A stretch of 64,000 nucleotides of DNA from Saxibacter everestensis (GTDB taxonomy: Bacteria; Actinomycetota; Actinomycetes; Actinomycetales; Brevibacteriaceae). The stretch spans positions 3,210,550 through 3,274,549 of the forward strand of contig NZ_CP090958.1 in the NCBI RefSeq assembly GCF_025787225.1, in the 5' to 3' direction. The notes under the pieces are model-generated. The model was not told the origin of the DNA, ran no database searches, and was given only the letters and a program-made list of their open reading frames with translations. Each line of letters begins with the position of its first letter. Position 1 is the first letter of the stretch. The translations under genes and the position numbers were made by a program. Below are positions 17,203 through 50,465 of the stretch, piece after piece.

Positions 17203-17297
17203 CGACTTTTGCGGGAGCTGACTGATGAGTAACCGCTCTGGTCTCACATTGTGAGCGGATTCGGTCAGCTACGAGGGCGTAGAACCCGCAAATGTCG
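17203..17297. repeat. 95-bp structured repeat, copy A
   Basis: Same length and orientation as copy B (18393-18487), differing at 14 of 95 positions. The ends are inverted: the first 13 nt and last 13 nt pair at 12 of 13 positions, so the repeat boundaries coincide with its own terminal stem. Inside are a second pair of arms (17216-17225 with 17261-17270, paired with one wobble), a CTCACA-T-TGTGAG dyad (17243-17255) and a CTACG-AGGG-CGTAG hairpin (17269-17282). It lies 25 nt beyond the stop of the AbiEi/DUF559 gene. In the 16942-17322 gap, apart from this repeat and the hyi promoter, I see no gene. Confidence 0.8.
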
Positions 17298-17322
17298 CGC
17301 CAGCTTCGCCTACCGCCAAGGG

Positions 17323-18234
17323 TCAGGACCGTCGTCTATGCAGGTTCAGCAGCCGCTTGATCGAGGCGATCATGCTTGCGGGGTCAAACATGACGTCCTC
17401 GTACGTGAATGCCAGTAGAAGATATCCAGCCAGCTGTGCTTGGTTGTGACGCCGCCGGTCGGCACGGTACGAACGGCGATCGGAGTGAAACGCCGCGCCA
17501 TCCACCTCAACCGCGATGATTCCCTCGATCACAAAGTCGACATGCCCCACCGCATAGATTTCCACTTGTGAGACGAAGCTCAGCCCCGAGATCAGCAAGG
17601 CGTACCGGGCCACGGTTTCCAGCACGGACGCGGCGGCGGGATCGATGAGGCCTACAGTTATCCGTGCGTCGGCCGCCGCCGGGTCTCGAAGACGTGCCGT
17701 GAGTGCGGGAAACGATACGAGCCCCTGGTTCACGGCCGCATCTGCGATGGCGAGCGCGACCAATCGGCCCTGACAGCGCAGCGCGTGAACGACGCAATCC
17801 AGCGCAGAGGCAAAGTTCCCATCCGATTCGTCCTGCTGACGATGAGCGATGGCGCCGGGAACCGGACGTTCGCTGGACCAGGCGAGGTGCACGCCGCCTG
17901 AGGCGGTCTCTCCCGGGTCGAACCGGGCAGTCCCGGCGGTCGTCGCGATCAGTCGTCGGATGCTCGCAATGGTCTCGCGCCCGGTGACCAGCGGCAATCG
18001 ATAGTGAGCCGCTGCTGAAACACAGCTCAGCCTGGCAGAGGCCATCACGGCCTGGGTGATGGCAGGCGCGGCATCAGGTAGCGCATACTTGCCGCGGCCG
18101 ACCCTGATGATCGCGCCGCCGTGCAGCGCCGCTTCGATCCGAGAGTCCGTGACGCCCGGGATGCCGAGCAGATCTCGTCGTCTTCCGGCGCCACCGAGCG
18201 CGGCCAGGCCAGTGAGAACGTCCATGCCTCGCAT
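17323..18234 (-). CDS. AbiEi-like winged HTH plus DUF559 (VSR-like) nuclease domain protein
   Basis: A 303-residue protein. Residues about 12-60 resemble the N-terminal winged helix of type IV AbiEi antitoxins (ALGGAGRRRDLLGIPGV, IIRVGRGKYALPDA). The C-terminal ~80 residues read as DUF559, a very-short-patch-repair-like PD-(D/E)xK fold (GHVDFVIEGIIAVEVDGAAF, then RSYRADRRRHNQAQLAGY). This architecture is common in actinobacteria as an orphan gene; its function has not been established here, and no AbiEii-like toxin is adjacent. An ATG at 18225 is an alternative start. The gene is unrelated to the ureide operons on both sides and is bracketed by 95-bp direct repeats, which suggests insertion as a unit. 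Confidence 0.75.
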   Translation of the reverse strand: MRGMDVLTGLAALGGAGRRRDLLGIPGVTDSRIEAALHGGAIIRVGRGKYALPDAAPAITQAVMASARLSCVSAAAHYRLPLVTGRETIASIRRLIATTAGTARFDPGETASGGVHLAWSSERPVPGAIAHRQQDESDGNFASALDCVVHALRCQGRLVALAIADAAVNQGLVSFPALTARLRDPAAADARITVGLIDPAAASVLETVARYALLISGLSFVSQVEIYAVGHVDFVIEGIIAVEVDGAAFHSDRRSYRADRRRHNQAQLAGYLLLAFTYEDVMFDPASMIASIKRLLNLHRRRS

Positions 18235-18392
18235 CGTGGCCCGATGGACAGGCGCACCACCTGCGGCCAGCCGAAACTGTGGAAGCCTGCGGCCACCATG
18301 CCACTTGTGCCGACGAGCCGGCGCCGACGGCGGAGAATTCCGGACGACTGTGAGCAGATCAGAACCGACCCGGCCACGTCGCCGGTAACAGC

Positions 18393-18487
18393 CGACTTTT
18401 GCAGGAGCTGACTGCTGAGTAACCGCCCTGATCTCACACTGTGAACGAATTCCGCCGCCTACGAGGACCTAGAACCTGCAAATGTCG
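18393..18487. repeat. 95-bp structured repeat, copy B
   Basis: Direct copy of the 17203-17297 element. The terminal stem is kept with a compensatory change: G17213-C17287 in copy A is A18403-T18477 here. The inner arms are more decayed than in copy A. It lies about 160 nt upstream of the AbiEi/DUF559 start. The 18235-18392 stretch between them has no other gene and probably holds that gene's promoter. Confidence 0.8.
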
Positions 18488-48968: not shown

Positions 48969-50465
48969 GTGTCGCTTACACTTCCGCGAATCGCAATAGC
49001 CGGCCTGAGTCTTGAGGCCAGCACCTTCTCACCAGCACGGACGACGACGGCGATGTTGTCGCCCAAACGCGGCGCCGAGATTCTCGACGGACGGCCGTTC
49101 TGGCAGCCCGGCGGGGCATTGCACGATGCTGCGGAATGGGTCCCGATCCTGCAAGGCCGGGGAATCCCCGGAGGTCCGGTGCCGCGCGAGGACTACGAAG
49201 ACCTCAAGTCGGAGATCCTCGGCGGGCTGAAGGACGCCGGGAGGCTCGATGGATTGGTCTTCGACATTCACGGCGCGATGAGCGTCATCGGCATGGATGA
49301 CGCCGAGGGCGATCTTGCGGTGGCCATTCGAGATGTGGTCGGTCCCGACGTAATCATCAGCACCGGCATGGACCTGCACGGTAACGTCAGCTGGCGTCTG
49401 GCGCACGCCCTCGACCTGTTGACGTGCTACCGGATGGCGCCGCACGAAGATGCGCTGGAAACCAAGGAACGCGCCGTGCGCAATCTGCTCGACCGTCTCG
49501 CACTACCCGCGAAGGAACGCCGTCCGCGCAAGGCGTGGATACCGATCCCCATCCTCCTGCCCGGCGAAAAGACGAGTACCCGGATCGAGCCGGCGCGAAG
49601 TCTGTACGACATGGTGCCCAGAACAGAGGCGCTGCCAGGCGTGCTGGACGCGGCGATCTGGATCGGCTACGCCTGGGCCGATGAACCCCGGAACTGCGCG
49701 GTCGTCATGGTGACCGGCGACGATGCCGGGCTGATCAGCGCGGAAGCCGAGAAGATCGCACAGGCCGTCTGGGAGCGACATGAAGACTTCTCGTTCGTTG
49801 CGCCGGCCGGCTCTCTCGATCTGTGCCTTGAAACCGCGCTGCGCAGCGACAAGCGCCCGTACTTCATCAGCGATTCGGGCGATAACCCGACTGCCGGAGG
49901 CGCCGGTGACGTCACCTGGACGCTTCGCGAATTGCTGATGCATGACGACCTGGTCAGTGGTGCTGTCACTGCCATTTATGCCTCGATTCCGGATCCGCAC
50001 GCCGTCGAGCAATGTGTGGAAGCCGGCATTGGCGGATCCGTTTCACTGAGCGTTGGGGCGATTGTCGACGCCGGGCCGGCGGGCCCGGCGATGCTGACTG
50101 GAATCGTCGAGCACATTCGTCACGGAGACGAGCACGCCGGTACCGAGGTGGTCGTCCGAGTCGGCGGTCTGAGCGTGATCATCACCGGCAGCCGAAAGCC
50201 GTACCACCTGGAGCGTGATTTCTCCCAGCTGGGCCTCGATCCTCGTTCCGCCGATATCGTCATCGTGAAGATCGGCTACCTGGAACCCGAGCTATTCGAC
50301 ATGGCGGCCGACTGGATGCTGGCACTGACTCCCGGCGGAGTTGACCAGGACCTGCTTCGGCTGGGCCACCACCGCATCAGCAGGCCGATGTACCCGTTCG
50401 ACGTTGATTTCGACGCCCCCGATCTGTCGGCCCGAATCGTGCCGGCCGCGGATGAGGACATTTGA
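48969..50465 (+). CDS. M81 family metallopeptidase (MlrC-like)
   Basis: A 498-residue protein of the M81/MlrC (microcystinase C) family. It starts RIAIAGLSLEASTFSPARTT and has LDGLVFDIHGAMSVIGMDDA and DVIISTGMDLHGNVSWRLAH, the aspartate/histidine sets expected to bind zinc. SDSGDNPTAGGAGDVTWTLR is strongly conserved in the family. The GTG at 48969 follows CAGGAAAATCAC; the longer frame to 48867 overlaps the ROK gene and is rejected. It is followed directly by cutC. Family members outside microcystin degraders have unknown substrates; here a peptide or peptide-sugar brought in by the Dpp-like importer is plausible. Confidence 0.88.
   Translation: MSLTLPRIAIAGLSLEASTFSPARTTTAMLSPKRGAEILDGRPFWQPGGALHDAAEWVPILQGRGIPGGPVPREDYEDLKSEILGGLKDAGRLDGLVFDIHGAMSVIGMDDAEGDLAVAIRDVVGPDVIISTGMDLHGNVSWRLAHALDLLTCYRMAPHEDALETKERAVRNLLDRLALPAKERRPRKAWIPIPILLPGEKTSTRIEPARSLYDMVPRTEALPGVLDAAIWIGYAWADEPRNCAVVMVTGDDAGLISAEAEKIAQAVWERHEDFSFVAPAGSLDLCLETALRSDKRPYFISDSGDNPTAGGAGDVTWTLRELLMHDDLVSGAVTAIYASIPDPHAVEQCVEAGIGGSVSLSVGAIVDAGPAGPAMLTGIVEHIRHGDEHAGTEVVVRVGGLSVIITGSRKPYHLERDFSQLGLDPRSADIVIVKIGYLEPELFDMAADWMLALTPGGVDQDLLRLGHHRISRPMYPFDVDFDAPDLSARIVPAADEDI

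Follow-up and report, generated by a model that had tools for sequence, protein, structure and literature searches.

A 95-bp inverted-ended repeat in the origin half of one chromosome, possibly kept as a putative protein-binding site of fixed geometry

Introduction

Two direct repeats enclose a gene in the window, by which we mean the whole stretch of 64,000 nt analysed here. The locus raises the question of what these repeats are: the ends of a unit that carries the gene, structures selected for their fold, or copies of an element with a distribution of its own. A sequence-only reading of the window had described them as structured mini-elements that could be either the REPIN/MITE-like ends of a mobile gene or paired regulatory elements of a defence gene. 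We compared the repeats within their own genome and with related genomes, and the answer that emerges concerns the position of a whole repeat family on the chromosome rather than the enclosed gene.

Results

From two repeats to a family of 30 copies

The two repeats, copies A and B (Table 1), are indeed 95 bp long each and align ungapped at 85% identity. Their ends are inverted as previously described, with 12 of the 13 outermost bases paired in copy A, and the homology between the copies stops at these ends: of the adjoining 30 nt, 5 match on the left and 6 on the right. A chance origin is excluded because the same element is present 30 times in the genome. BLAST of the own genome provided a third copy, and the proposed search for the element in the same genome, conducted with sequence-only profiles, finally delivered a family of 30 copies, A and B included, on the circular chromosome of 4.05 Mb.

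Table 1. Copies A and B and the enclosed gene in window coordinates; the scores to model R1 are those of two copies that belonged to its training set.
Feature	Position	Strand	Remark
95-bp element, copy A	17203..17297	+	genome position 3227752, family + orientation; 72.9 bits to model R1
Copy A, left terminal arm	17203..17220	+	family consensus CGACATTTGCRGnnGCTn
Copy A, inner left motif GTAACC	17229..17234	+	family positions 27-32
Copy A, central partial dyad	17242..17256	+	family positions 40-54
Copy A, right terminal arm	17280..17297	-	inverted relative to the left arm
Gene for a 303-aa AbiEi-like/DUF559 protein, between copies A and B	17323..18234	-	judged a bystander outside the element
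95-bp element, copy B	18393..18487	+	genome position 3228942, orientation as copy A; 73.7 bits to model R1
Copy B, left terminal arm	18393..18410	+	
Copy B, inner left motif GTAACC	18419..18424	+	
Copy B, central partial dyad	18432..18446	+	
Copy B, right terminal arm	18470..18487	-	

The size of the family is well delimited. A fixed-length pattern of the end pair matched 13 copies and its reversed control none; with a variable gap the pattern matched 12 places, eight of which are family members, all with an identical 85-base span. Model R1, a sequence-only profile built from 17 copies, recovered 13 further copies at 37.4-65.3 bits, and the next non-overlapping match scored 14.2 bits. Model R2, built from all 30, returned the same 30 and no additional copy in the genome; its scores (47.7 bits for the weakest copy) are high because it was trained on these copies. 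The genome-wide searches scored 150 of 2007 first-look candidates with R1 and 108 of 1640 with R2, and the profile E-values derive from a shortened calibration.

The anatomy of the element is strikingly uniform in length. It is exactly 95 bp long in 28 of the 30 copies, the other two having 94 and 96 bp, and the mean pairwise identity among the 28 is 60%. Conservation is concentrated in blocks, namely, the ends CGACATTTGCRG..GCT and TAGC..CTGCAAATGTCG, the motif GTAACC at positions 27-32 and TCTCACnATGnGAGC at positions 40-54. The last of these shows that the inner CTCACA-T-TGTGAG dyad first noticed in copy A is a feature of the whole family; the CTACG-AGGG-CGTAG hairpin of copy A is already absent from copy B. 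In the copy at 2563327 another short stretch of the right end (gcctcagcattt) adjoins that end directly, which gives the impression of a duplication of the outermost bases. The only clear broken copy that we saw is a 29-nt left end (3658930-3658958, 9.3 bits), about 20 bp past the full copy at 3658817, which overlaps the end of a called membrane-protein gene.

Outside this chromosome the element was absent from 59 other genomes of the family (BLAST, E<=0.001) and from 395 further genomes of the order, a selection from a larger group (R1, E<=0.001, strict filters, ten candidates scored per genome); the genus is represented by one genome among those searched. Model R2 gave partial matches at E<=1 in 28 of 38 relatives (best E 0.012, at most 17.4 bits), which we take as noise. 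The element was not found in plasmids with blastn, and an exact core pattern, carried by only 8 of the 30 known copies, matched nothing in the genome_contigs and viral_contigs collections.

Spread as a unit and apparent constraint on resident copies

The flanks of seven sister pairs have little or no homology, with 4-13 of 30 adjacent bases matching. A remnant may be retained in the right flank of the pair 3658817/3659513, which scores 19 on a background of 11.3 (sd 2.7, largest 22). Target-site duplications show no excess at 2-12 bp among the 30 copies (e.g., at 4 bp one was observed and 0.57 expected). Unrelated sister flanks and the absence of target duplications together indicate that the copies spread as exact 95-bp units, and duplication of this unit is the most likely origin of the copies as judged from their comparison.

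The element is small, non-coding and multicopy and has terminal inverted repeats, all of which are traits of a MITE; the target-site duplication that also characterizes this class was not found. A Y1 transposase (Y1_Tnp, PF01797) gave 0 matches in the own genome at E<=0.1, and the control was positive in 8 of 14 genomes. A REPIN driven by a RAYT was rejected on this result. The former proposal of a REPIN/MITE-like unit is right as to a self-contained mini-element with inverted ends that spread as a unit, and is not supported as to the gene as a part of that unit.

Sister copies differ preferentially where the family is variable. Across ten of the 14 disjoint sister pairs, changes affect 25 of 320 conserved and 214 of 630 variable columns (p=7e-21, with conservation judged without the tested pair and columns treated as independent). 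When the test is limited to the three closest disjoint pairs, in which the recovery of only good copies introduces little bias, 4 of 95 conserved and 47 of 190 variable columns differ (p=6e-6). This test and the covariation statistics below omit the 94- and 96-bp copies. Because the differences avoid conserved columns, the resident copies appear to be selected, and the pattern appears to match the prediction of purifying selection on them; unsampled intermediate jumps could mimic part of this constraint.

Confinement to the origin half

The contig closes into a circle via an intact reading frame. The origin was placed by a DnaA domain match (3,620,814-3,621,314), three perfect parS sites (starts 3,625,487, 3,626,736 and 3,627,949) and the GC skew sampled at 20 places. 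All 30 copies are located within 1.142 Mb of dnaA and leave an empty arc of 1.848 Mb, whose centre (1.639 Mb) is 42 kb away from the antipode of dnaA (1.597 Mb). The family shares this absence from the terminus region with terminus-excluded marker sites. After collapsing close pairs into 27 sites, a gap of this size never arose in 200,000 simulations with uniform placement; with placement weighted by the supply of intergenic gaps, it arose in 25 of 2,000,000 (p about 1e-5).

When 496 kb (27%) of the empty arc were searched directly with the profile, no match was obtained, an outcome with a chance probability of 0.001-0.01 at the density of the origin half. The comparison search of 197.9 kb found two copies besides those of the window, in origin-half stretches that include, like those of the parS scan and the gap counts, one 12-kb stretch at 2.50 Mb inside the empty arc. 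Too little room near the terminus was considered and rejected: gaps of at least 110 bp number 31.9 per 100 kb there versus 41.9 in the origin half, and this lower supply is insufficient to explain zero copies because the weighted simulations rarely empty the arc. Local hopping as the source of the origin bias was likewise rejected, since a Mantel comparison of sequence and chromosomal distance shows no positive correlation (rho -0.11, all copies). The score of an element is independent of its distance from the origin.

Among the best-scoring 20 ORFs scanned from the empty arc, the only housekeeping genes are typA, citrate synthase and ychF, all located at 2.19-2.27 Mb, which indicates that this stretch is not foreign DNA. 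Most of the 20 are transporters, regulators or unnamed, and the remainder of the arc may be younger DNA.

Gene context

All 30 copies have their midpoint outside the genes called with a codon-usage caller trained on ten window genes; one copy intrudes by 2 bp into the end of a gene. For 12 copies, a called stop codon is found at a distance of at most 40 bp. On the gene map, read by eye, 11 copies are located between convergent, 4 between divergent and 15 between co-directional genes. The corresponding numbers for 83 gaps of the origin-half sample are 12, 28 and 43, so that convergent gaps are enriched (11/30 vs 12/83, p=0.002) and divergent gaps depleted (4/30 vs 28/83, p=0.01). The avoidance of divergent gaps, which bear promoters, makes a role of the element as an operator unlikely. 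A Pfam match was obtained for 29 of the 35 flanking genes scanned (of 57); they are of many kinds and do not comprise a transposase. A PemK/MazF-type toxin gene (49927-50196) is located 356 bp from the element at 49476. Three near-origin elements lie within long apparent gene gaps of 1.1-1.4 kb (3576357-3577763, 3603682-3604850 and 3724731-3725822), which may hide atypical genes or RNAs.

Discussion

A possible mark of the origin half

The property common to the copies is their position and not the identity of their neighbouring genes. Our tentative reading of the sequence data is that of a lineage-specific MITE/REPIN-like repeat, the copies of which would now be kept as putative protein-binding sites of fixed geometry in the origin half of the chromosome. 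The near-fixed length, the two inverted end motifs and the conserved centre suggest that DNA and protein assemble into a complex of defined geometry, and each copy would represent a compound putative binding site with about nine helical turns between its ends. The site would have spread by a transposition-like process that leaves no target duplication, for which no mover was found, and resident copies would be maintained since they mark or organise the origin half. In a mode like that of SlmA, Noc or SeqA, exclusion from the terminus would let the sites signal that origin-side DNA is clear of the division site; alternatively, they might serve as loading or tethering sites for chromosome segregation. 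The more specific scenario that a dedicated putative protein reads the 95-bp site as a chromosome-domain mark, for which mobile-element-like units first spread and were then conscripted, appears doubtful to us.

According to PMC3116907 and PMC4726725, SlmA of E. coli has about 24-52 dispersed sites and Noc of B. subtilis about 70. The sites of SlmA, Noc and SeqA do not occur in the terminus region, and the genes next to them need not be under their control. The 95-bp element resembles them as a dispersed specific DNA site that is absent from the terminus region. The SlmA and Noc sites are palindromes of 12 and 14 bp, in contrast to a compound element of 95 bp, and SlmA sites are mainly located in coding regions, whereas our element is intergenic and was found in one genome. 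The closest likeness to the parS/ParB system is an origin-proximal location. Here, three canonical parS sites are found within 7 kb of dnaA, but their sequence and length are unrelated to those of the element, and the 95-bp copies extend 1.14 Mb from the origin.

Several observations speak against a marker role, among them the difference in length from the SlmA and Noc sites, the possibly younger DNA in part of the empty arc and the known repeat deserts of P. fluorescens described below. A general role predicts an equivalent in relatives, and none was recognized by sequence in the 395 genomes of the order with ten candidates scored per genome; an equivalent could have diverged past recognition. 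Furthermore, pairs that are 0.7-1.2 kb apart are more like insertion clustering than functional spacing.

A plain mobile repeat as a possible alternative

A plain repeat family that does nothing for its host is a nearly equal rival of the origin-half site. It would consist of MITE/REPIN-like non-autonomous mobile repeats, whose ends persist because spreading requires a competent copy, in a chromosome with a younger or more rearranged terminus half. The inverted ends and the duplication of a unit with unrelated flanks fit this explanation well, as do the occurrence in one genome alone, the truncated 29-nt copy beside that at 3658817 and the scarcity of housekeeping genes in the sample of 20 ORFs from the empty arc. 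It is challenged by the absence of target duplications and of a Y1 transposase; single-end matches to the element occur in the genome, and no autonomous relative was seen. Moreover, the scores show no continuum of decayed copies, sister differences spare the conserved columns, and housekeeping genes are present inside the empty arc. Similarity is not higher for nearer copies, as the rho value given above documents, even if sisters make up two of the three close pairs.

The best precedent for such a family is found in Pseudomonas fluorescens. In PMC2718517, the families R0, R1, R2 and R178 are described as intergenic repeats of 80-110 bp that are confined to certain strains, possess inverted ends in some cases, favour tail-to-tail gene pairs and leave repeat-free regions; strain SBW25 has intergenic repeats with deserts, and the synteny of the species fades toward the terminus. 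The 95-bp element shares the size range, the inverted ends that some of them have, the intergenic location, the restriction to a strain, the tail-to-tail bias, which thereby supports a plain repeat family, and a repeat-free region. The differences, within the same account (PMC2718517), concern number, since the main P. fluorescens families reach hundreds of copies (R178 9-28) and ours has 30; length, since the core size varies within their inverted-repeat families and ours is near-invariant, which argues against a plain repeat family; and distribution, with 60 deserts of up to 176 kb there and a single one here, which spans 1.85 Mb on the side of the chromosome away from the origin.

The inverted ends, the duplication as a unit and the intergenic location are also reminiscent of REPINs, and the anatomy of individual REP hairpins was not seen in the element. 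REPINs or REP doublets are inverted doublets of roughly 100 bp that are mobilised by RAYTs and spread as units between genes. Unlike the REPIN/RAYT system, the 95-bp element has no Y1 transposase in its genome and no GTAG tag (PMC3733652) at its ends. The CGTC-tagged REPs of the same source are a parallel insofar as they are palindromic intergenic repeats without dedicated transposase; with stems of 8-9 bp, loops of 4-5 bp and the CGTC tag they differ in anatomy from our element (PMC3733652).

Terminal symmetry and a putative RNA element

An improbable explanation is a structured RNA or a bidirectional transcript-end element at the 3' ends of genes. The convergent enrichment and the proximity of 12 copies to stop codons would suit it, and it offers no account of the empty terminus half. 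Folding and covariation also speak for it. As DNA, the copies fold more stably than their shuffled versions (mean z -2.3), with 13 of the 30 below -2, and the pair that had been noticed as a compensated change between copies A and B (G17213-C17287 versus A18403-T18477) corresponds to family position 11-85, which co-varies in the family. It is of Watson-Crick type in 21 of 28 copies (12.2 expected; z 3.8, the sixth highest among the column pairs tested), and position 13-83 in 16 of 28 (10.9 expected). The covariation is modest evidence because several off-axis column pairs reach a z like that of 11-85. Taken over its full 18 bp, the terminal stem shows hardly any covariation: it has 76.7% paired cells compared with 74.6% in column shuffles, 12 of 500 shuffles reach 76.7%, and its covariation score is matched by 20 of 500.

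A conserved fold was rejected. The RNAalifold consensus is weak, with 10 pairs and -2.84 kcal/mol, and 17 of the 30 copies have a z above -2. The interior is unfolded on average (mean z -0.39, with 6 of 30 copies below -2). The Rfam search yielded two sub-threshold matches, both outside the elements. The supposed structural selection is thus narrowed to one or two base pairs (11-85 and 13-83) and does not extend to a common fold across the family. The ends of the element are symmetric, and a common hairpin is not supported.

The bracketed gene

The locus was initially taken for an AbiEi/DUF559 gene set between two ureide operons. A single gene is bracketed instead; ureide/glyoxylate-type genes are present on its flanks as stated, but all are located on the minus strand and may form one cluster, judged by Pfam only. 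The enclosed protein matches DUF559 with 22.5 bits (cut-off 20.6) and stays below the cut-offs of MTES_1575 (28.5 versus 38.2) and AbiEi_4 (18.7 versus 25). No AbiEii partner of an AbiE type IV toxin-antitoxin system was detected among the ten neighbouring genes scanned, which are metabolic or encode a regulator. Searches with the gene in 59 further genomes of the bacterial family (E<=1e-5), among the NCBIfam families (E<=0.1) and for relatives in viral contigs were all negative. Four homologues (31-37% identity) are present in Arthrobacter castelli, A. ruber, Nocardioides abyssi and N. oceani, and the host genome is probably actinobacterial like these relatives. A weak paralogue (2600572-2600937; 37% identity to residues 182-297 of the query, its DUF559 end) is located 37 kb from the nearest copy of the element. 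A Tsukamurella plasmid with an allE-type gene has a different gene order and is useless as an empty-site comparison.

The association of repeat and gene did not withstand the comparison. The 95-bp element is absent from the 5-kb flanks of all four homologues, and relatives thus carry the gene without the repeats. Twenty-four of the 30 copies are unpaired; three direct pairs are found within 1.3 kb, and two of them are sisters (85% and 83% identity; 66% in the third). The genes they enclose are unrelated: one pair of the three surrounds the DUF559/AbiEi-like gene, another the gene of an HTH_20 regulator and the third that of a membrane-type protein for which no Pfam family was found. Their host-like codon scores are 0.11, 0.22 and 0.13 per codon versus 0.23-0.41 for most neighbours, and low scores are also found in genes adjoining unpaired copies. 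A gene cassette, in which recombination between paired sites would move or remove the enclosed gene, is therefore highly improbable, even though three direct pairs each surround one called gene of lower host-like codon score: the bulk of the copies stand alone, the enclosed genes have nothing in common, the homologues lack the element and low codon scores are not peculiar to the pairs. The bracketed DUF559 gene looks like a bystander that is incidental to the element.

Implications

To our knowledge, few sequence-specific chromosome-domain marks have been recognized. The literature searched gave no description of such an element, which is in itself a weak statement. The canonical Z-ring regulators of E. 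coli are reported to be missing in actinobacteria (PMC7118173). If the element is a plain repeat family, it would be an intergenic repeat for which no mover was found, with an unusual length constraint and a desert on the megabase scale. If, on the other hand, the tentative reading as a site of the origin half is true, the family would represent a terminus-excluded marker system of new architecture, in which a small mobile repeat has turned into a landmark of chromosome organisation. With a 30-copy site that is strongly constrained, nearly fixed in length and excluded from the terminus half, the idea of a chromosome mark can be tested.
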